61,759 nt of DNA, taken from Alphaproteobacteria bacterium. GTDB taxonomy: Bacteria; Pseudomonadota; Alphaproteobacteria; Rhodobacterales; Rhodobacteraceae. Below the pieces are notes generated by a model. The model ran no database searches, was not told the origin of the DNA, and saw only the letters and a list, made by a program, of their open reading frames with translations. The translations under genes and the position numbers were made by a program. Positions within the stretch are counted from its first letter, which is position 1, and the number at the start of each line of letters is the position of its first letter. Location: assembly GCA_003331935.1 (NCBI GenBank), contig QOQE01000010.1, positions 1 to 61,759 on the forward strand. The letters are read 5' to 3'. Positions 5,751 to 15,438 of the stretch are shown here, in pieces.

Positions 5751-6188
5751 TTAACAAAGAGTTTCTGACACTTTCGTTGTTGCTTTTATAGTTACTAGAG
5801 CAGAAGCGGTTAATATCTTATTCTTATCTTTTATCGTATACACTTTAGACTCTCCATGAAAAATACTTCTACCCCCTTGTAAAATCACTGCCTCAGCAAT
5901 TAGCTTTTCCCCATTTGCAATATTTAGAAAATTAATTTTAAATTCAATTGTTAGGGGTTCCTTTTCCTTGCCCATCAAGGTCATTGCAGCAAATCCAGCT
6001 GCATTGTCCGCTATCGCTCCTGAAATACCTCCGTGAAATAAACCATGTTGTTGAGTTATATTTTTGTCATAAGCTACTTCTATGTTGGCTTTCCCCGAGG
6101 ATATCGAAGTGAGTTTAGCACCTATATAAGGCATAAGTGGTTGATTTAGGAAAGAAACTCTCAATTCTTGTTCTGTGCGAATATCCAA
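5751..6188 (-). CDS. PaaI-type hotdog-fold thioesterase
   Basis: A hotdog-fold acyl-CoA thioesterase of the PaaI group. HGGISGAIADNAAGFAAMTLM matches the family's HGG...D...A helix, with a following strand (PLTIEFKINFL) typical of the fold. The frame is open to TTG 6257, but that would overlap the preceding AhpD-like gene by 65 bases. TTG 6188, 4 bases after that gene's stop and behind an AGGG, gives a normal 145-residue protein, so I use it; GTG 6248 is another option. It is in an operon with the AhpD-like gene. It probably clears an aryl- or acyl-CoA, but the substrate is unknown. Two more genes of this kind are in the window, at 16349 and 60103. Confidence 0.85.
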   Translation of the reverse strand: MDIRTEQELRVSFLNQPLMPYIGAKLTSISSGKANIEVAYDKNITQQHGLFHGGISGAIADNAAGFAAMTLMGKEKEPLTIEFKINFLNIANGEKLIAEAVILQGGRSIFHGESKVYTIKDKNKILTASALVTIKATTKVSETLC

Positions 6189-6192
6189 AATT

Positions 6193-6795
6193 TTATACCC
6201 TATGTTTTCCAGGTGTCCAATTGGTGGTTTCCTTAAGATACTTTTCACCTTTTTCAATTGGCAAATCTTCTAGAGCTGAGCCCATACTGTCATTCCAACG
6301 ATTGAGAAAACCAAAAAATGCAATGACACTCATTATTTCAATAATGTCATTATCATTCCAATATCTTTTTAATTGAGACACTAATTTTCCCGTCACCTTA
6401 TTAGGCACAGAAGCTGCCGCAAAAGCGAAGTCTAGAGCTGCCTTTTCTGCATCTGAAAAAGCAGATGAATTAGAATAAGTCCACACTTCATCTAGTCTTT
6501 TTTTCGAGCTTCCAAAGCGTTCGGCTCCTAAAATTGTATGAGCTTGGCAATAAAGACAACCTGAAGAAAAACTTGATATATATCCAATAAGTCTTTTAAA
6601 TTCTGGTGTAACTGATCCTTTGCATTCCATCACCGCAATGTTTAGGTTTGTAAATGCGTCAGCAATCTTGGGATGGTAACTCATAGTTTTAACAGAACTC
6701 GGTATAACGCCGAGAGGTCCTTTAAAGAACTGAATTTTTTCTAATAGATTTGAATCAATTTCATTTTCGTCAAGCGGTTTTACAATTTCCATCAT
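6193..6795 (-). CDS. AhpD/carboxymuconolactone decarboxylase-like peroxidase-related protein
   Basis: A 200-residue alpha-helical protein of the AhpD-like, 'uncharacterised peroxidase-related' type. The redox motif is Cys80-Leu-Tyr-Cys83 followed by His86 (SSGCLYCQAHTILGA), the CxxC-xx-H arrangement that AhpD uses for thiol-dependent peroxide reduction. EKAALDFAFAAASVPNKVT and the C-terminal IIEIMSVIAFFGFLNRWND helix are also family-like. It starts with tandem ATGs at 6795 and 6792. The thioesterase gene follows directly. By family it is a cytoplasmic alkylhydroperoxidase-like thiol enzyme, but partner and substrate are not known. Confidence 0.87.
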   Translation of the reverse strand: MMEIVKPLDENEIDSNLLEKIQFFKGPLGVIPSSVKTMSYHPKIADAFTNLNIAVMECKGSVTPEFKRLIGYISSFSSGCLYCQAHTILGAERFGSSKKRLDEVWTYSNSSAFSDAEKAALDFAFAAASVPNKVTGKLVSQLKRYWNDNDIIEIMSVIAFFGFLNRWNDSMGSALEDLPIEKGEKYLKETTNWTPGKHRV

Positions 6796-7008
6796 TTTCC
6801 CTTGGTACTATTTCATAAAATAATTGAAAAAAGTATTTCAGAATTAATTGAAAATAGCACTAGCTTAAATTCGAAATGCGCAAATAATCATCTTGGGATA
6901 TTATCTTTTCCATAAACTATTAAGATTTTATGGACTTATCCACTTCCTTTATAACTTCAGAACAGAATTGAAGGATTTTAATGTTAAAAGGTTTTTTAGA
7001 ATATAGGT

Positions 7009-7053
7009 TCCCCTCATACATAGGTTTGGGTTTATATTGGGAGTATGAGGGGA
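7009..7053 (+). promoter_or_regulatory. Hairpin that would pair the ribosome site of a leader peptide
   Basis: TCCCCTCATAC (7009-7019) and GTATGAGGGGA (7043-7053) are perfect reverse complements, separated by a 23-base loop. The 3' arm contains GAGGGG, a good Shine-Dalgarno match 5 bases before an ATG at 7058. If the RNA is made, folding would hide that ribosome site. No U-run follows, so it is not an intrinsic terminator. A role in controlling the sugar operon starting at 7194 is inference. Confidence 0.4.
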
Positions 7054-7057
7054 CTAC

Positions 7058-7102
7058 ATGACTGCAAAATGCATGCCACGCTTAACGATATCACAAACTT
7101 AA
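7058..7102 (+). CDS. Possible 14-residue leader peptide
   Basis: The frame ATG to TAA encodes MTAKCMPRLTISQT. It is preceded by GAGGGG with 5-base spacing, a better ribosome site than many real genes here have. The site sits inside the 3' arm of the hairpin at 7009-7053. The frame ends 91 bases before the aminotransferase start. It could be a regulatory leader, a fragment or chance; there is no homology to support it. Confidence 0.25.
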   Translation: MTAKCMPRLTISQT

Positions 7103-7193
7103 AAGAAAAAAAATCATAGTTTTTTGCTAGCTAAAGACGCTTTCCTTTTTTGCTTTATATCACTAATATGCTTTAGGTGAGTAGGAGGTTAAG

Positions 7194-8333
7194 TTGCCCG
7201 GATTTGAGGTTATCGACGAAGAAGAGAAAAAAGCAATCTCTCGCATCTTTGATGAAGGAAAGGTTTTTTTCGCGCATGGCTTTGATAATAAGAGAAAGCA
7301 TTATCATGTAAGGGAATTCGAAAATAAATTAAAAACTGTGTTTAGCCCTCAAATGGCTGATGCTCTATGCGTTTCATCTGGTACTGCCGCGATAAAAGTG
7401 GCTCTAAAGGCTTTAGGTATAGGTAAAGGGGATAACGTTATAACACAGTCCTTTAATTTTATTGCAACAGTAGAAGCGATTGTAGATACTGGCGCCAGTG
7501 TAATCTTCACCGATATAGATGATACATTAAATATGAGCCCCATGAGTCTAGAAAGTCTAATCACCAAAAAAACAAAAGCTATCATACCAGTTCATATGTT
7601 GGGAGTACCTGCAGATATGATATCAATAAACAAAATTGGGAAAAGGTTTAAGATACCGATAATTGAGGATGCATGCGAAGCAATAGGAGCAAAAGTTGCA
7701 AAAAAGTATGTTGGAGGGTTAAGTGAATTTGGTGTATTTAGCTTTGACTTTGGCAAAATGATTACGACTGGAGAAGGGGGTGCACTTTTTTCTAAAAAGA
7801 AAAACGACGGAAAAATTGCGAGAATGTATCACGATCATGGCCATAAAAATATTCCTGATCTACCAAGAGGATTAGATCGTGCAGGCTTAATAGGGTTTAA
7901 TTACAGAATGACAGAAATAAGTGGGGCCTTTGGCAAGGTTCAGTTAGGGAAATTTTCAGGTATTTTAAAGGAGTCAAAAAAAAGATATCTTACTCTCGAA
8001 AGATACATTAGCCATAACCAAATAAAATTAAGGCACGTAAATTTAGGTAATGAGCCGAATTATGATACTTTTGTTATCTCTATTGAAAATAAGAAATTAC
8101 GCGATCGAGTGATTAGTTTATTAAATCAAACTGGCTTTGGCACAAAAAATTTACCCGATGCTTTTAACTGGCATTGTGCATATTTTTGGAAACATATTAA
8201 TAAAAAAATTAGGAATAAAGAAGTAACCAATTGCTATAAGAGGTTACTAAGGTGCGTCGCTATTCCAATTTTAGTATCGAAGCCAATTATAGATTACAAA
8301 AATATTGCCAGTTATATTAATGAATTGTCTTAA
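7194..8333 (+). CDS. DegT/DnrJ/EryC1-family sugar aminotransferase, KdnA-like
   Basis: A 379-residue PLP-dependent sugar aminotransferase. SSGTAA at 61-66 binds the cofactor phosphate, Asp159 (IEDACEAIG) contacts the pyridine N, and Lys188 in SFDFGKMITTGEGG is the Schiff-base lysine. The start is TTG 7194, 5 bases behind AGGAGG, giving MPGFEVIDEEEK. That N-terminus, the HDHGHKN stretch at about 213-219 and GLIGFNYRMTEISGAFGKVQLGK resemble, from memory, Shewanella KdnA. KdnA transaminates the 8-aldehyde of Kdo to 8-amino-3,8-dideoxy-octulosonate. The family itself is certain and the KdnA-like substrate is probable. It overlaps the cytidylyltransferase gene by 14 bases, and a GMC oxidoreductase follows, so the three enzymes likely work in sequence on one sugar acid for LPS or capsule. 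Confidence 0.85.
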   Translation: MPGFEVIDEEEKKAISRIFDEGKVFFAHGFDNKRKHYHVREFENKLKTVFSPQMADALCVSSGTAAIKVALKALGIGKGDNVITQSFNFIATVEAIVDTGASVIFTDIDDTLNMSPMSLESLITKKTKAIIPVHMLGVPADMISINKIGKRFKIPIIEDACEAIGAKVAKKYVGGLSEFGVFSFDFGKMITTGEGGALFSKKKNDGKIARMYHDHGHKNIPDLPRGLDRAGLIGFNYRMTEISGAFGKVQLGKFSGILKESKKRYLTLERYISHNQIKLRHVNLGNEPNYDTFVISIENKKLRDRVISLLNQTGFGTKNLPDAFNWHCAYFWKHINKKIRNKEVTNCYKRLLRCVAIPILVSKPIIDYKNIASYINELS

Positions 8334-9117
8334 TGAAAACTTAGTTATAGTAATTCCTGCTCGAAAAAACTCAAAAAGGCTCAAAAATAAAAATTTTAAG
8401 GATTTTCACGGGTTCCCTTTATTTGAGTGGAGTATAGCGGCTGGATTGTTTATAAAGCACCAGCTCGGTGGCTCAAGAAAAATTTCAGTTATTTGTTCCA
8501 GCGATGACCATCAGATTTTAGATCTAATAAAAAAGAAATATATATCTAATGTTTACGCGATTCAAAGAAGTGCCAAGCTATCTGATGATAAGGCAATTCT
8601 ATCTGATGTTATAATTGATTGTATCCATAGGCTAGCTGATGAAGGCATGATTTGCGTAGATGATTATTTGGGTGGGAGCTTTATCTTGTTGCAACCAACA
8701 TCACCTATCCGATTAAAAAATGATCTAGTTAACTTTTGTAGCCAAATAAGAGATTTAGGTGATTATCATTCAGTAGTATCAGTCAATAGACGCTATAAAG
8801 TAATTAAAGATGTTTATAAGATAATTAATAAAGGTGAAGTAAATTCAGATTTTTCAATTGGGTTCATAGGTCAAAAATTGATTACATGGAAGGATATTGA
8901 AAATAATAATACGGCTTTTGTCGACGGTAGTTTGTATTCAGGCTCTGTATCTATGCTGAAAGAAAAAGGCTTTATGCCTGAGGCTAAGACTTTGGCTTTT
9001 CCTCTTTCAATAGATAACTCGATAGACATTGATACCGAAGAAGAATTTAAAGATGCTCTACTATTGATCAAAAAACTAAAAGAATTGGGAATAGAGTATG
9101 TCAAACCAAGAATATGA
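8320..9117 (+). CDS. Acylneuraminate/nonulosonate cytidylyltransferase (NeuA-like)
   Basis: A 265-residue CMP-sugar synthetase that activates a 2-keto-3-deoxy sugar acid with CTP. The N-terminal VIVIPARKNSKRLKNKNF is the nucleotide-binding loop of NeuA-type enzymes. LLQPTSPIR and the C-terminal SIDIDTEEEF motif with metal-binding Asp residues follow. It reads more like NeuA/PseF than KdsB, whose loop is PARYASTRLPGKP. ATG 8320 is chosen; ATG 8305 is in frame and would overlap the aminotransferase by 29 bases instead of 14. Its end overlaps the GMC gene by 20 bases, indicating translational coupling. The substrate may be a sialic-type sugar made by the NeuB encoded on the other strand, or the amino-Kdo suggested by the upstream gene. 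Confidence 0.85.
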   Translation: MNCLNENLVIVIPARKNSKRLKNKNFKDFHGFPLFEWSIAAGLFIKHQLGGSRKISVICSSDDHQILDLIKKKYISNVYAIQRSAKLSDDKAILSDVIIDCIHRLADEGMICVDDYLGGSFILLQPTSPIRLKNDLVNFCSQIRDLGDYHSVVSVNRRYKVIKDVYKIINKGEVNSDFSIGFIGQKLITWKDIENNNTAFVDGSLYSGSVSMLKEKGFMPEAKTLAFPLSIDNSIDIDTEEEFKDALLLIKKLKELGIEYVKPRI

Positions 9118-10639
9118 CTTGGCCATTATTGGTGCTGGGACTTCTGGTTTAGAAATTGCAAAAAATGCAAGCAGATGTGGGTTCAAAGTTTGTTTGATAG
9201 AACAAGGGCATTCTGAGGGTAAAAGTTATTTTAATAAAATACCTTTACTATCAGGCAAATTACTGCAAAACAACAAACATTGCTTGAGTTTCACATCTCA
9301 TAAACAAAAAGGTTTGAAAAACCGAGAACTACCTATTCTTCAGGGAACTGGTTTTGGTGGTTCGAGTTTGATAAATGGTAACGTCTCATATTTAGGTTTT
9401 AAGAAAAAGTTTCAAGATGTTTTCTCTTTTTGGCCAAAAAGTTTGTTCCAGAGAATAATAGACAATATATACTGTGACGCAGATTTCTCATACATTAGAG
9501 AGTTCGGTTATTCAGATAACCTAACCAATATTTTTTGCAAAACTCTCAATAGTTTTTTAGTGCCTGAGGTTGAAGATTTAGATAACTTACTCGAAGGGTG
9601 GGCAAAAATTCATCTAAATATTCGCGACTCTAAAAGATATAATTTTTCAAATGACTTCAATGAAAATGCGCTTCACAAAAACATTATGAAGCTAGCCAAT
9701 ACTCGCGCTACTAAGATCCTTTTCAAAGACAATAATGCTACAGGAGTTGAGTGCGAAAATATAAAAACTAGATTGAAAACTGTTGTTAATGCCCGAAAGA
9801 TTATTCTTTCGGCAGGCACTATATTTTCACCATTAATTTTAATGCAGTCAGGTATCGGGGACTCCAAAGAGGTCTATAAAACTGGAGTCCCATTAAAATT
9901 TAAGCAAGAACATGTTGGAAAGCATTTAAAAGATCACGCCAACTTTAGGATTGAATTTGACTGTTTAGGGTTTGATACTCTTAATCAAAAAACGCGCGGA
10001 TTGAAATTATTTATGGAGTTGATTAGGTATCTTATCTCAAGGGACTCCATTTTTAAAAGTCCAGGAGCAACTCTTGCCTGGAATAAATCAAGTTTTAATA
10101 AGAAAAATAATATAAACGATTTGGTTAGATATCATTTGGTACATTTTACACAAGAACGAAATTTGTTATCCTCTAAAGGAATAAAATTTCAAAAAGCACA
10201 AAGAGCGTCTATTGGATGTTTTCAAGTTTTTCCAAAATCTGAAGGATCAATATTTTTAAATGATATAAAAAAAATACAAATTGACCCAAACTATTTGTCA
10301 CACAAATATGATAGAGCTCTTGCTCATAAAGCGTATTTAAGCGCGTTCGATCTCCTGAAAAAAGCAGGCTTTTCTCAAATTGGCAACAAGCTTACTTTTT
10401 CTGAAATAGAGAAAAATTTGGAAGCGGAAACATATTCTGGATATCATTTGATTGGGACTAATAGAATGTCTAAAGATAAAGGTAATGGAGTCGTAGATGA
10501 AAACTTCAAAGTGTTTGGGACTAACAATCTTTATGTATGTGACGCATCAGTATTTCCTGATTTTGTTTCAACGCATCAATATTTACCCACTTTAGCAGTA
10601 AGTAAGATTTTTTCGTTACAACAAGGGATACTTACTTAG
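9098..10639 (+). CDS. GMC-family FAD-dependent oxidoreductase
   Basis: A 513-residue glucose-methanol-choline family flavoenzyme. The FAD Rossmann motif GAGTSG is at 12-17, the second flavin loop is GTGFGGSSLINGNVS, ARKIILSAGT is the conserved mid-protein motif, and the C-terminal GMC_C domain contains His450 (GYHLIGTNRM) and NNLYVCDASVFPDF. The usual His/Asn catalytic pair would be His493 (STHQYLPTL) and its surroundings. There is no signal peptide, so it is cytoplasmic. GMC enzymes oxidise alcohols to carbonyls. Coupled by overlap to a sugar cytidylyltransferase and aminotransferase, it probably makes the sugar carbonyl for transamination, the step done by the unrelated alcohol dehydrogenase KdnB in Shewanella; that is inference. 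It overlaps neuC tail to tail by 8 bases. Confidence 0.88.
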   Translation: MSNQEYDLAIIGAGTSGLEIAKNASRCGFKVCLIEQGHSEGKSYFNKIPLLSGKLLQNNKHCLSFTSHKQKGLKNRELPILQGTGFGGSSLINGNVSYLGFKKKFQDVFSFWPKSLFQRIIDNIYCDADFSYIREFGYSDNLTNIFCKTLNSFLVPEVEDLDNLLEGWAKIHLNIRDSKRYNFSNDFNENALHKNIMKLANTRATKILFKDNNATGVECENIKTRLKTVVNARKIILSAGTIFSPLILMQSGIGDSKEVYKTGVPLKFKQEHVGKHLKDHANFRIEFDCLGFDTLNQKTRGLKLFMELIRYLISRDSIFKSPGATLAWNKSSFNKKNNINDLVRYHLVHFTQERNLLSSKGIKFQKAQRASIGCFQVFPKSEGSIFLNDIKKIQIDPNYLSHKYDRALAHKAYLSAFDLLKKAGFSQIGNKLTFSEIEKNLEAETYSGYHLIGTNRMSKDKGNGVVDENFKVFGTNNLYVCDASVFPDFVSTHQYLPTLAVSKIFSLQQGILT

Positions 10640-11756
10640 TGGAGGTCTCAAAAAACGCTTTCTGCAAATTTAATTTCCAGATTTTTTTATCTTTCAAAAT
10701 CTTAGTAAATTTTTTTGCTGATTGGCCTGTTCCAAAACTATTATCAGTCGGAAAACGTTTTCCCCATAGGCTTTCAACTAACCTATCAAGATTCTTATTT
10801 TTGAAAACATCAACGTTTTTTATACTTTTGGCCTCAGCTCTTCTAAATTGGCGTGATCCTATATTGATAGAAGGAACCCCGAGAAACGGAGCCTCTCGAA
10901 CGCCAACAGAACTATTTCCGATTATTATTTGAGAATTTTTTAATAAAGTTGAAAAATATGAAAATCTCATTGAAGGTATTTGTTTAAAATGAGATGAAGG
11001 CAGTTTTCCGATAGCCTTAAATATTATTTCACATCCTGGGTCATTGTTTGGAGAAATAACTACAAAATTCTTTTTTAAATTTTTTAAAGAATCGCAACAA
11101 ATTTGGATCTCTTTCTTTAAGCTTTCCAATTCAGACGTTACAGAATGAAAAATAAAAATCCCATATTTATCCCATTGGATGTCATAATAACTCAGCACCT
11201 CATGGAGAGGAATTGTATTTCTCTTTTTATGTGTATCAAGTTCTGGAGATCCAAGAACGAAAACTCTATCAGGATGTTCCCCGAGTTTCGTGACTCGGTT
11301 TTTTGCTGATGTAGAGCTTACGAAGTGCACCGTGCATAACTTGGTGTTACAATGCCGATAAACTTCATCTATAGTTCCCGACACTTCTCCTCCTTCAATG
11401 TGGGCACTTCGTAAGTTATTTGTTGCACAAACAAGAGAGGCAGCAACTGCTTCAATTCTATCTCCATGAATTAAAACAAGGTCTGGCTTTAGCCTGCTGA
11501 CATATTCGGAGATGCCCGTAATAGTTCTCGAAAGGATTTTATCCTGTGGATCTCCCTCCATCTGATTGATGAATTCAAACCGTTTAATTTTTTTCATCCT
11601 TGAAACTTCGATGCTAGTTAGACCATACTTTTCTAGAAGGTGCATGCCAGTAACAAAAAAGTAAATTTTAAATCCCGCCAATCTCGCGCTTGATGCTAAT
11701 GGTTCGAGTTTTCCAAAGTCGGCTCTAGTGCCTGTTATGAACAATAGTTTTTTCAC
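10632..11756 (-). CDS. neuC: UDP-N-acetylglucosamine 2-epimerase (hydrolysing), NeuC
   Basis: A 374-residue NeuC/SiaA-type enzyme that converts UDP-GlcNAc (or a related UDP-sugar) to ManNAc (or analogue) and UDP, the first step to nonulosonic acids. ITGTRADFGKL at the N-terminus, LIHGDRIEA, AHIEGGEVSGTIDEVYRH and GNSSVGVREAPFLGVPSINIG are all hallmarks of the hydrolysing 2-epimerases. The start is GTG 11756, 10 bases after the neuB stop, with no strong ribosome site. It forms a neuB-neuC operon. It could act on a GDP- or bacillosamine-type substrate as in legionaminic acid routes; sequence alone does not decide. Confidence 0.9.
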   Translation of the reverse strand: MKKLLFITGTRADFGKLEPLASSARLAGFKIYFFVTGMHLLEKYGLTSIEVSRMKKIKRFEFINQMEGDPQDKILSRTITGISEYVSRLKPDLVLIHGDRIEAVAASLVCATNNLRSAHIEGGEVSGTIDEVYRHCNTKLCTVHFVSSTSAKNRVTKLGEHPDRVFVLGSPELDTHKKRNTIPLHEVLSYYDIQWDKYGIFIFHSVTSELESLKKEIQICCDSLKNLKKNFVVISPNNDPGCEIIFKAIGKLPSSHFKQIPSMRFSYFSTLLKNSQIIIGNSSVGVREAPFLGVPSINIGSRQFRRAEAKSIKNVDVFKNKNLDRLVESLWGKRFPTDNSFGTGQSAKKFTKILKDKKIWKLNLQKAFFETSTK

Positions 11757-11766
11757 AGTAATAACT

Positions 11767-12774
11767 TTATTCCAAATCAGACCATTTTATCTGATTATTC
11801 TTTGCAATATCTCTTTTTAAAGTCTTTCCTAAAACTTTTTCAAATTCAAAGGCGGCTATTTCTCCGTCACCAGGTCTTCTAGCCCAGATATTGTGCCTAT
11901 CAATAGTATCACCCTTTTTAAGGTCTTTATCAGTAACAATTGAAGATCGTGCAAACCTATAAACATCTTTTTCAATATCAGCTATAAACTTATTTCTATC
12001 TCTTGCATAAGCGATGTCTTTGCTTTTTTTTATAAGGTGTTCGAGTTCGTCTGGGTCCATTGAGCATGAGATGTCAGGTCCTTTTCGATTTTTAGTGTCA
12101 GTGAAATGTTTTTCAATAATTGTCGCACCTAATGCAACGGCTGCTAAAGACATGGTTGGTCCAATTGAATGGTCTGAAAATCCTATTTGGGCTTTAGGAA
12201 ACTCGTGCGACAATTGTGCTAAACTACCTAGCGCAATTTCCTCTGGTGGGCAGGGATAAATGTTCGTACATTCTAACAGTGCGTATTTTATTGAGTGTTT
12301 TTCAAGAATTTCTACAGGCTTTTTTACTGAGGATATATTTTGCATTCCTGTGGAGAGGATGATTGGCTTCCCAAATTTTGCAATATGCTCAACCAAAAGA
12401 AGGTTGTCACATTCTCCAGAACCAATTTTAAAGGCAGGTACATTTATATCATTTAAAAAGTCTGCAGCAGATCTAGAGAAAGGAGTGGAAATATAAATCA
12501 TTCCTAAGTCTTCTACTATCTTTTTTAAATTTATTTCTTCATCTCTTGTTAAAGAACATTTTTCCATTACATCCCAAATCGAGACATCTGCGTTAGGGGG
12601 CATTATTTTTTTAGCATCTGGTGTCATCTCGTCATCAAGAAAGTGTGTCTGGTGCTTAATAACCTCGCAGCCTTTCTCAGCAGCTTTTTTAACCATTTGT
12701 GCTGCAACTGAAAAAACTCCACCATGATTTATACCTAATTCTGCAATTATTAGAGGTGCTTCTTTGGAGCTAAT
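11767..12774 (-). CDS. neuB: N-acetylneuraminate (nonulosonic acid) synthase, NeuB, with a non-canonical start
   Basis: NeuB condenses phosphoenolpyruvate with ManNAc or an analogue to give a nine-carbon sialic-type acid. CEVIKHQTHFLDDEM, ADVSIWDVMEKCSL, YISTPFSRSAA, KIGSGECDN, LSTGM, ALLECTNIYPCP and GFSDHSIGP match the TIM barrel. The C-terminal antifreeze-like SAF domain (FARSSIVTDKDLKKGD, IWARRPGDGEI) is complete. The first ATG in frame is at 12696, but the frame stays open upstream and encodes the conserved family N-terminus PLIIAELGINHGG, so the protein must begin earlier. No ATG, GTG or TTG exists between that motif and the upstream in-frame stop. I place the start at ATT 12774, next to an AGGA; the exact codon is uncertain. 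neuC follows 10 bases later. Confidence 0.85.
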   Translation of the reverse strand: MSSKEAPLIIAELGINHGGVFSVAAQMVKKAAEKGCEVIKHQTHFLDDEMTPDAKKIMPPNADVSIWDVMEKCSLTRDEEINLKKIVEDLGMIYISTPFSRSAADFLNDINVPAFKIGSGECDNLLLVEHIAKFGKPIILSTGMQNISSVKKPVEILEKHSIKYALLECTNIYPCPPEEIALGSLAQLSHEFPKAQIGFSDHSIGPTMSLAAVALGATIIEKHFTDTKNRKGPDISCSMDPDELEHLIKKSKDIAYARDRNKFIADIEKDVYRFARSSIVTDKDLKKGDTIDRHNIWARRPGDGEIAAFEFEKVLGKTLKRDIAKNNQIKWSDLE

Positions 12775-12821
12775 GGTCCTGTTTTTAATTTTTAAAATTT
12801 TTAAACCTATCTTTTGAAATA

Positions 12822-14264
12822 ATGATTAGTAAAATGGCGTTGCCGAATTGGAAAAATACGCAAGTATTTAATAGGTTAATTTTTTCTAGGTGTCGATTGA
12901 AATTTGAATTGAAAAAAAATATCTCTTTATTGGTTTTTAATCTTTATCAGGTTCTCTGGTATCTATTCTTACCCATTGCATTACTATATTTTTTTTATCG
13001 TTCTATAAAAGAACCGGGATATGCTTCGGAACTCTCAGAGAGATTAAGCTTTTATCAAAAAGACATAAAGGGAGCTTGTTGGTGTCACGCTGTGTCTTTG
13101 GGAGAAGTGAGAGCAGCCCGCCCTATTTTTGATAAACTTCTTTTGAACGGAGAGAAATTATTAGTTACCACGCTGACTTTATCTGGAAAAAATGCGGTAC
13201 GATTGGAATATCAGGCAGAAATAAAACTTGGAAAAGTAGCAGTTGTCTACGCCCCACTTGAAATTACATTTTTTTTCAAAAGGTTCCTTGCCCGTTTTAA
13301 ACCTAGGTGCTGTATAATTTTAGAATGTGACCTGTGGCCAGTGATGATCGCATCCACTCAAAGAGAAAAAATCCCTTTAATCTTTGCCCAGGCACAATAC
13401 CCTGAAAAAGGATTTATAAGAGATAAAAAATTTCCGTTTCTGAAAGCAAGTTTGATCGAAAAGTTCGATTTGATTTTAGCTAAGTCAGAGAGGCATAAAA
13501 GCAGATTTGAGTATTTTGGAGCAAAAAAGGTATTAGTTATTGGGGACACTCGCTTTGAGCAAAATGTTCCAGTAGATCAAATTAGCATGGCGTCCAAGAT
13601 TAAGAAAAAACTTCTGAAGAAATGTTTTACAGTGTGTTTTGCCAGTATTGGGAAAAAGGAATTTGAAATAATAAAGGAAATAGTTCTAGCGCTGTCTGAA
13701 AAATTCCAAGATATTTTTTTTATAATTGTTCCCCGACACCCTAATGACTTTGGTAAGTATAAGACCTTATTTGATAAGGGTTTAATTAAAGTAAAAACAC
13801 GTAGTGAGTTAATGGAGCAAAAAGTAGATTTTAAAAAGATGAGTTTTGATACCTTTGAAGGTTTACTTAATTTTAGTTTGCTATGGGGAGATAGTCTTGG
13901 AGAATTGAATTTCTATATGGCAATGTCCGACATCGTTTTTATGGGAGACTCGTTAAACAACGAAGGATCGCATAACATTATTGAACCTTTAGCAATAAAA
14001 AAACCTGTAATTGTTGGTCCAAGCATTTGGGGAATTGAATTTCCTGCATTGGAAGCCTTAGATGCAGGAATTATTAAAAAAATTAGCGGACAAAAAGAGT
14101 TAGCAGCAGCTCTGGTAGAAGTATATCATGATAAAAAAGAAAAGAATATTAGCAAAACCAGTATTACAAAAATGGAAAACTTCTATATCAATAATCATGG
14201 TGCTTCTGAAAAGTTTATGAAAGAGATGACCAATAACAAGTTTTTAGGGTTTAACCATGATTAA
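12822..14264 (+). CDS. 3-deoxy-D-manno-octulosonic acid transferase, WaaA/KdtA-like
   Basis: A 480-residue glycosyltransferase that transfers Kdo-type sugars from CMP-sugar to lipid A at the inner membrane. A membrane-anchor helix (FLPIALLYFFYR) precedes KEPGYASELSERLSFY and HAVSLGEVRAARP, whose Glu is the family's catalytic base. The C-terminal GT-B half carries GDSLGELNFYMAMSDIVFMG and GSHNIIEPLAIKKPVIVGP, the CMP-binding stretch. About 30 N-terminal residues before NISLLVFNLYQ have no counterpart in usual WaaA, so the true start may be a later TTG near 12906. The usual length is about 425. Placed next to nonulosonate and KdnA-like genes, it may be specialised for a modified Kdo; a separate housekeeping copy could exist outside the window. 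Confidence 0.85.
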   Translation: MISKMALPNWKNTQVFNRLIFSRCRLKFELKKNISLLVFNLYQVLWYLFLPIALLYFFYRSIKEPGYASELSERLSFYQKDIKGACWCHAVSLGEVRAARPIFDKLLLNGEKLLVTTLTLSGKNAVRLEYQAEIKLGKVAVVYAPLEITFFFKRFLARFKPRCCIILECDLWPVMIASTQREKIPLIFAQAQYPEKGFIRDKKFPFLKASLIEKFDLILAKSERHKSRFEYFGAKKVLVIGDTRFEQNVPVDQISMASKIKKKLLKKCFTVCFASIGKKEFEIIKEIVLALSEKFQDIFFIIVPRHPNDFGKYKTLFDKGLIKVKTRSELMEQKVDFKKMSFDTFEGLLNFSLLWGDSLGELNFYMAMSDIVFMGDSLNNEGSHNIIEPLAIKKPVIVGPSIWGIEFPALEALDAGIIKKISGQKELAAALVEVYHDKKEKNISKTSITKMENFYINNHGASEKFMKEMTNNKFLGFNHD

Positions 14265-14271
14265 AAGCGAC

Positions 14272-15438
14272 TTACGTTTTAATTTCTTTGGTCTCATTTG
14301 GCAAATAAACTAATGAAAAAATACAAATTAAAGCCAGTATCCCAACTAACAAAAACGCATAATAGTAACTCTGGGTCAAATCAAAAATAGCTCCTGCTAC
14401 TATAGGTCCAGACACGGATCCTATTGCGCCAAAAAATGTTATCTTTCCAAAAACAGCACCGATATTTTTGAGACCAAAGTTTTCCGCTATAATAAAAGGA
14501 GCTATTGTGAAGTGACCACCATGAGAGAAACCATACAAACAGAGTAGAACGTAAATAAAGTAAATATTTTCTGTGAAAGGTATGGTGAATAAAGCAAAGG
14601 TCATAGGGCAAAGACAAATTATATACGTTTTTTTTCCGCCTAGTCTGTCCGCTAGCACGCCTATAGAAAGTCTCCCAAAAATACTAGAAAAACCTATTAT
14701 TGAAAGAAGTAAAGCGCTCTCCTCTAGAGATAAGCCAACATTTAATCCATGCGCGGCGATATGTGTCATTGTAGTGAACATGGTGAAGAAAATGCAAAAT
14801 TGACAGAAAGCTAAAAGGCTAAAAACTTTCTTGTCCAGTAATTCGAATGAAGTTTTCGCGTCAACTGGTGTCTTTCCCGAAGTTTTTGGTGCGGTTATTA
14901 TTGATGCTGCCAAAACCAATCCGATGCTTGCAGCAATACCAAGATAAAATGTAGCTGTCTGCCAACCGAATCTTATAATTAAAAAAGCGATGAGGGGAGG
15001 CATTATCATTTGACCCATTGCTGTACCTATCTTGGCAACCGATGTCATTAATCCTCTTTTTGAGTCGAACCACTTTGCTATGGTTGATAAAGTGGAAATA
15101 TCGTGGGTGCTGAGCCCTACCCCAATAAAGAAGAAAAAAATCAAAAATAAATGCCATACTTCGTTGGATAGTGAAAAGAGAATGAAACCTATTCCAAAAA
15201 TAAAACCATTCACACTCAAAACAATTCTAGGGCCAAGTCGATCATTTAAATAACCTCCTGGTATGGCTAGTATACCCCATGCCATCCAGCCAGCTGCTCC
15301 AATTGATGATAAAATTGTTCTCGACCATCCAAACTCTTTTTCAAGCTCGGTCATAAGTACGCCATAAGTGAATAACATCCCTACTATAATGAACTGTGTG
15401 AAGAAAGAACCTACAACAACATTTACTTTTTTTATCAT
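14272..15438 (-). CDS. MFS transporter, monocarboxylate/oxalate-formate-antiporter type
   Basis: A 388-residue protein with about twelve hydrophobic helices. The N-terminal half reads FGWSRTILSSIGAAGWMAWG and GGYLNDRLGPRIVL, the loop 2-3 motif of major facilitators. The second half repeats it as GRLSIGVLADRLGGKKTYI. This subgroup (MCT/OxlT-like) commonly moves carboxylates. It starts at ATG 15438 and converges with the waaA-like gene 7 bases away. The substrate is not predictable, and no catabolic operon sits on the same strand. Confidence 0.87.
   Translation of the reverse strand: MIKKVNVVVGSFFTQFIIVGMLFTYGVLMTELEKEFGWSRTILSSIGAAGWMAWGILAIPGGYLNDRLGPRIVLSVNGFIFGIGFILFSLSNEVWHLFLIFFFFIGVGLSTHDISTLSTIAKWFDSKRGLMTSVAKIGTAMGQMIMPPLIAFLIIRFGWQTATFYLGIAASIGLVLAASIITAPKTSGKTPVDAKTSFELLDKKVFSLLAFCQFCIFFTMFTTMTHIAAHGLNVGLSLEESALLLSIIGFSSIFGRLSIGVLADRLGGKKTYIICLCPMTFALFTIPFTENIYFIYVLLCLYGFSHGGHFTIAPFIIAENFGLKNIGAVFGKITFFGAIGSVSGPIVAGAIFDLTQSYYYAFLLVGILALICIFSLVYLPNETKEIKT

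Follow-up and report, generated by a model that had tools for sequence, protein, structure and literature searches.

The window considered here is a stretch of 61,759 nucleotides from a member of the Rhodobacteraceae (contig QOQE01000010.1 of assembly GCA_003331935.1). Between positions 7194 and 14264 it carries an island of six genes (Table 1), encoding a KdnA-like aminotransferase, a cytidylyltransferase (here called CmpS), a flavoprotein oxidoreductase of the GMC family, NeuC, NeuB, and a relative of WaaA (here called WaaA-prime). An earlier reading of the letters alone (the original prediction) had placed the six genes there, had named their families, and had described the first three as overlapping. 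All of this has held: the open reading frames (ORFs) are found at those coordinates in the ORF list of the window, matches to Pfam and NCBIfam models give the same families, and the first three genes, which share a strand, have overlaps of 29 and 20 bases if their listed starts are used. The genes neuB and neuC lie on the other strand, separated by 10 bases. The GMC gene and neuC meet tail to tail with an overlap of 8 bases, and the WaaA-like gene is divergent from neuB. Two of the listed starts may need to be moved: CmpS perhaps begins at ATG 8320 instead of 8305, and the WaaA-like gene probably begins at TTG 12897, the same as the TTG start of a relative (L010).

Table 1. Genes of the island, with positions in the window and the matches on which the family assignments rest
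Product	Position	Strand	Match and remarks
KdnA-like pyridoxal phosphate (PLP)-dependent aminotransferase (DegT/DnrJ)	7194..8333	+	PF01041, 247 bits; TTG start
CmpS, cytidylyltransferase of the CMP-nonulosonate type (CMP-sugar)	8305..9117	+	PF02348, 45 bits
GMC flavoprotein oxidoreductase	9098..10639	+	PF00732 and PF05199
NeuC, hydrolysing UDP-GlcNAc 2-epimerase	10632..11756	-	TIGR03568, 346 bits (exceeds cut-off of 236)
NeuB, N-acetylneuraminate synthase	11767..12795 (ORF as listed: to 12696)	-	PF03102, 236 bits
WaaA-prime, WaaA-like GT30 paralogue	12822..14264	+	PF04413, 140 bits

The island is real and is conserved as a unit. The GMC gene is present in 19 of the 22 genomes of the genus, and the three genomes without it, with a completeness of 62-77%, have no GT30 match either. 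CmpS and NeuC flank the GMC gene in all 19, and KdnA does so in 18; in the one genome without a flanking KdnA, the end of a contig falls inside CmpS. NeuB is on the same contig as GMC in all 19, as is the GT30 gene in 18, the remaining genome (G101) having its GT30 gene at the edge of a different contig. Because of these linkage counts, the island cannot be put down to chance, and the claim that the six genes would be kept together in relatives is borne out by the 19 GMC-bearing genomes, the misses falling at contig ends. The deepest members of the genus, G111 and G116, have the identical gene order, with GMC proteins that are 55% identical, and six named records from uncultured Alphaproteobacteria carry the GMC gene at 77-79% identity.

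Beyond the genus, the GMC protein is found at 1e-40 or better in two of 99 other genomes of the family (G003 and G045). Both have the gene order KdnA-CmpS-GMC-WaaA-prime on a single strand with no neu gene within, and both carry NeuB-NeuC-WaaA at a separate locus of the same genome. Since each holds the two modules apart in one genome, the island in the window joins two modules. All three genera of the family that have KdnA and GMC (these two and that of the window) also have NeuB and NeuC. At 1e-80, with four candidates per genome scored, the GMC profile finds one of 337 genomes of the class, the window's own. The plasmid collection held no close relative of GMC (two records, best 26% identity) and no WaaA-prime (25 records, best 31% among the matches listed).

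The gene that the original prediction took for WaaA fits that name in part. Like the WaaA proteins of GT30, WaaA-prime has the domain PF04413 and the catalytic Glu, but it is not an ordinary WaaA: it belongs to a clade of its own, is linked to NeuB, and bears residues specific to that clade. The protein falls below the cut-offs of all five NCBIfam WaaA models (best 260 bits vs 524), and the WaaA of Aquifex (2xci) matches it at 68 bits. In a tree of 68 GT30 rows (ORFs of 330-560 residues; 92 less 25 duplicates, plus E. coli), WaaA-prime forms a separate clade of 25 rows supported at 100/100, and canonical WaaA rows from the same genomes fall elsewhere. The tree leaves out genes that are shorter, cut, or split, for example the WaaA-prime gene of G120, which is split into two ORFs (L137 6656-8039). 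Within the clade, the genera with KdnA and GMC make up one branch of 15 rows (100/96). A second branch consists of nine rows (100/97), seven of them adjoining a gene for a short-chain dehydrogenase (SDR263), and the WaaA-prime of G079 lies outside both. The catalytic Glu is kept in all 25 rows, and other positions, numbered as in E. coli, distinguish the clade: at K208, R in 24/25 (K in 43/43 other GT30 rows); at Q183, K in 25/25 (Q in 39/43 others); at R154, Q in 23/25 (R in 40/43); at G333, S in 20/25 (G in 43/43); and at P336, I in 24/25 (P in 43/43).

Where WaaA-prime is found, so is a gene of the NeuB family. In a count over 80 genomes of the family (leaving out G080-G099), WaaA-prime is present in 13, at 343 bits or more, with other listed matches at 163 or less. 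All 13 have a NeuB-family gene, which in 11 is of the same type as the window's (at least 615 bits) and in G056 and G079 of another type. Fisher's exact test gives p = 8e-9 for the association, or 2e-5 once the six genomes from which the profiles were made are set aside. NeuB of the window's type is present also in two genomes counted as without WaaA-prime, G017 and G021, the latter so counted with a 107-residue piece of WaaA-prime at a contig edge. A search of the class added two genomes of the family (G331, 573 bits, and G138, 529 bits; next match 220), both with NeuB and NeuC inside the 20 kb inspected. Combined, 15 of the 82 genomes of the family that were examined carry WaaA-prime, and each of the 15 has a NeuB-family gene: within 20 kb in 11, far away in G003 and G045, and on a different contig in G022 and G056. 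Four GT30 loci of other families (G279, G367, G235, and G392; 4 of 97 matching genomes) carried none of the nonulosonate genes that were compared.

In G079 (L255 5691-12003), WaaA-prime sits inside an operon for pseudaminic acid (Pse), after PseI. PseB, PseC, and PseF of this operon score above their cut-offs and PseI slightly below (328 vs 340); WaaA-prime is followed by a gene without a name and by one like PseH (48 bits, 93 needed). The operon is like the island in having WaaA-prime beside genes for a nonulosonate (PseB, PseC, PseF, and PseI), but the nonulosonate is a different one, and no GMC or KdnA-like gene is among the genes mapped there. Elsewhere, WaaA-prime is adjoined (e.g., L183 14435-16847) by genes for SDR263 (8 of the 15 genomes), CmpS2 (8 of 15), and a Gfo/Idh-like protein (7 of 15), perhaps another, putative tailoring set for a nonulosonate.

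The nonulosonate in the window's genus would be N-acetylneuraminic acid (Neu5Ac) or a derivative. It is established for the two families that NeuC converts uridine diphosphate N-acetylglucosamine (UDP-GlcNAc) to N-acetylmannosamine (ManNAc) and that NeuB condenses ManNAc with phosphoenolpyruvate (PEP) to give Neu5Ac. The window's NeuB scores 325 bits against TIGR03569 (cut-off 400), the ORF as listed missing its first 30-odd residues. Its nearest solved relative is the NeuB of N. meningitidis (332 bits; next protein 130), and NeuB and NeuC are 58% and 57% identical to proteins of S. meliloti plasmid CP090105. By these likenesses the two are predicted to be of the Neu5Ac kind. Among the nine proteins at 5754-15438, the part of the window that the scan covered, no 4,6-dehydratase or N-acetyltransferase of pseudaminic or legionaminic acid synthesis was found. 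The plasmid (L301 8321-12444) carries a sialic acid locus, NeuA-NeuB-NeuC, like the island in its NeuB and NeuC but unlike it in their neighbours, which are annotated as polysialyltransferases and capsule export genes, as against GMC, KdnA-like, and GT30 genes in the island. Between the plasmid's NeuB and the NeuB of G003, identity is 76%.

CmpS is likely to be a CMP-nonulosonate synthetase, because of its relatives, a motif, and its place in a tree. The best NCBIfam model is PseF (66 bits vs a cut-off of 206), and KdsB gives 20 bits (cut-off 155). At E 0.01, CmpS has four solved relatives, all of the NeuA type. Its motif IPARKNSKRLKNKN corresponds to IPARYASTRLPGKP in the KdsB of E. coli. In a tree of 41 rows, CmpS lies on the NeuA/PseF side, split at 100/100 from 21 KdsB rows that include E. 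coli. For this tree the tool warned of a meeting of long branches, one of which is the KdsB branch.

The original prediction also called the aminotransferase KdnA-like, and the comparison with solved structures agrees: KdnA (5k8b) is the best match at 188 bits, aligned from residue 1, with the next chain at 147. In a tree of 14 rows, seven aminotransferases from such clusters group with Shewanella KdnA (100/99), as against ArnB, WecE, PseC, LegC, and perosamine synthase, and not with an enzyme of another sugar specificity. The single KdnA reference, 5k8b, is on a long branch. A first tree of 16 rows gave the same split (91/99), after which L187_499 (on a very long branch) and L242_313 were dropped. 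The PLP-binding Lys188 is invariant in 7 homologues, and so are His450 and His493 of the GMC protein, which we take to be the GMC catalytic pair. At 1e-40, the nearest solved relatives of GMC are alcohol oxidases (8rpf and 8rpg). In Shewanella, KdnB and KdnA together turn the terminal CH2OH (C8) of 3-deoxy-D-manno-octulosonic acid (Kdo) into CH2NH2, KdnA aminating the terminal aldehyde. A Pfam and NCBIfam scan found no KdnB among the six proteins of the island, to which the search for it was confined, and the GMC flavoenzyme occupies the place where KdnB would be expected. The aminoglycosides offer a precedent for a GMC enzyme working with an aminotransferase; a literature search listed no paper on it.

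We propose that the six genes specify one pathway for an amino-nonulosonate with a GT30 transferase of its own, a reading to which we give a probability of roughly one half. According to this model, NeuC would make ManNAc from UDP-GlcNAc, and NeuB would condense it with PEP to Neu5Ac. In the free sugar acid, the GMC enzyme would then oxidise a primary alcohol, in all likelihood the hydroxyl at C9, to an aldehyde, which the KdnA-like enzyme would transaminate to give 9-amino-9-deoxy-Neu5Ac (CH2OH to CH2NH2). CmpS would make the CMP donor of the amino-sialic acid, and WaaA-prime would transfer the amino-nonulosonate to the core or the lipid A region of lipopolysaccharide (LPS). The overlap of the CmpS gene with those of its partners suggests that amination precedes activation. 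The acceptor is suggested by the transferase being of GT30 and by the canonical waaA found in several of the same loci. Neu5Ac has been reported in the LPS of Rhodobacter capsulatus (PMC9631793), which agrees with such an acceptor, given that the family is Rhodobacteraceae. The analysis itself shows the gene families, their conserved linkage, the NeuA/PseF type of CmpS, and the distinct GT30 clade with its NeuB association, while the substrate, the carbon, the sequence of steps, and the donor and acceptor of the transferase are inferred. The part of the model concerning GT30 stands on better support than does the exact sugar.

Several observations weigh against the model. The amination operon of G003 and G045 is far from NeuB and NeuC. 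Eleven of the 67 family genomes without WaaA-prime carry a NeuB-family gene nonetheless, and the genomes of a family are not independent samples; Fisher's p takes no account of common descent. The row nearest to the WaaA-prime clade from outside is the WaaA of E. coli, a Kdo transferase, and the nearest characterised aminotransferase, KdnA, acts on Kdo and not on Neu5Ac. Kdo, moreover, is probably there for enzymes of the genus to act on: of its 22 genomes, 13 have kdsA above the cut-off and 12 have a kdsB-like match scoring at least 96 bits. G003 and G045 have both genes. Finally, NeuB in this assembly lacks a usual start codon. The listed start (12696) is an internal Met, the match to the family profile covers 11770-12795, and the frame, open to about 12795, offers no ATG, GTG, or TTG upstream of that Met. 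At the aligned start codon, the 15 genomes of the genus that were read have TTG (11) or ATG (2), except for CTT in G102 and TTA in the window. The window's gene may begin at an unusual codon such as ATT, or its sequence may contain an error.

With Kdo genes in the genus and an amination operon away from neuB and neuC in G003 and G045, the product might be 8-amino-Kdo (Kdo8N): GMC, standing in for KdnB, and the KdnA-like enzyme would act on Kdo, CmpS would make CMP-Kdo8N, and WaaA-prime would attach it, leaving NeuC and NeuB to a separate sialylation. The aminotransferase does belong to the KdnA clade, most well-covered relatives (G003 and G045 included) have kdsA and kdsB, and the operon of those two contains no neu gene. 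We nevertheless consider this route unlikely. CmpS is not of the KdsB type, 12 of the 15 family genomes with WaaA-prime have neither KdnA nor GMC beside it and still have a NeuB-family gene, and in the window's genus neuC and neuB are inside the cluster. The original prediction had Kdo8N and nonulosonate routes running side by side, which does not suit an island with no KdnB or kds product and a GT30 clade that tracks NeuB; the other option that it offered, a nonulosonate aminated after its formation, is the better one as a putative account of these genes. The Shewanella pathway of KdnA and KdnB is a close parallel to the proposed chemistry. It shares with the island the transaminase clade and, if the proposal is right, the way in which the terminal alcohol of a keto-deoxy sugar acid is changed first to an aldehyde and then to an amine. 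Kdo8N has been called a hallmark of the LPS of Shewanella (PMC6357163).

WaaA-prime might also be a second Kdo transferase of the ordinary kind that came in from another source and lies in nonulosonate loci by chance. That would suit the conserved catalytic Glu, the position of E. coli WaaA in the tree, and the presence of canonical waaA in several of the same loci. It seems distinctly improbable in view of the NeuB-family gene in every WaaA-prime genome, the site within the Pse operon of G079, and the changes at positions that are nearly invariant in the 43 remaining rows of the GT30 tree, of which E. coli is one. Or perhaps GMC and the KdnA-like enzyme act at C8, C7, or C4, or on the ManNAc precursor or the acceptor sugar, and give a different amino sugar. 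The GMC and DegT families are generally known to use many substrates, and no computed result fixes the carbon; yet KdnA works on a terminal aldehyde, the nearest solved GMC relatives are alcohol oxidases, and CmpS overlaps both partner genes, suggesting that they act on the sugar that CmpS activates. Of the accounts considered, this one we judge the least probable.

If the proposed pathway is extended to the family as a whole, one arrives at a more tentative idea, which we think somewhat doubtful as it stands: GT30 would hold a clade of nonulosonate transferases in the family, in the window's genus, as in two sister genera, the donor would be a natural 9-amino-9-deoxy-sialic acid made by the GMC/KdnA-like pair, and these small ocean bacteria would carry LPS with a zwitterionic sialic acid. 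One paper gives seven families of inverting sialyltransferases and, among the families listed, GT30 as the sole inverting Kdo transferase (PMC9587256), and another describes GT30 enzymes as CMP-Kdo transferases (PMC5811610). If the idea is true, the fold of a Kdo transferase has been re-used for nonulosonic acids, beyond those seven families. There would also be a sialic acid whose tail bears a positive charge, and the enzyme pair could help in preparing amino-sialic acids. The second waaA-like genes of the family would then be misnamed, since the NCBIfam models that match the window's WaaA-prime are all WaaA models, each below its cut-off. Searches of open-licence papers listed none whose title or opening lines of the abstract link WaaA or GT30 to nonulosonates, describe a GT30 nonulosonate transferase, or report a natural 9-amino sialic acid.

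The window's own assembly, 90% complete, yielded no KdsA, no true KdsB, and no second GT30 gene. A loss of Kdo from this genome was considered and rejected. The absence of kdsA is probably a gap in the assembly, because the DNA match with the G105 region that holds kdsA breaks off where contig C11 ends (32154 of 32158), the stretch of the query that contains kdsA being unmatched. On G000:C10 (L245 and L246), about 166 bases match two sites within the kdsA region of G105 at 93-95% identity; perhaps they are an intergenic repeat of the genus. In some members of the genus, a further cluster adjoins a second WaaA gene (L121 1443-9957, L122, and L123). It encodes a KdsA-like protein of about 297 residues (84-88 bits, below the KdsA cut-off), together with a cytidylyltransferase and glycosyltransferase-like genes.

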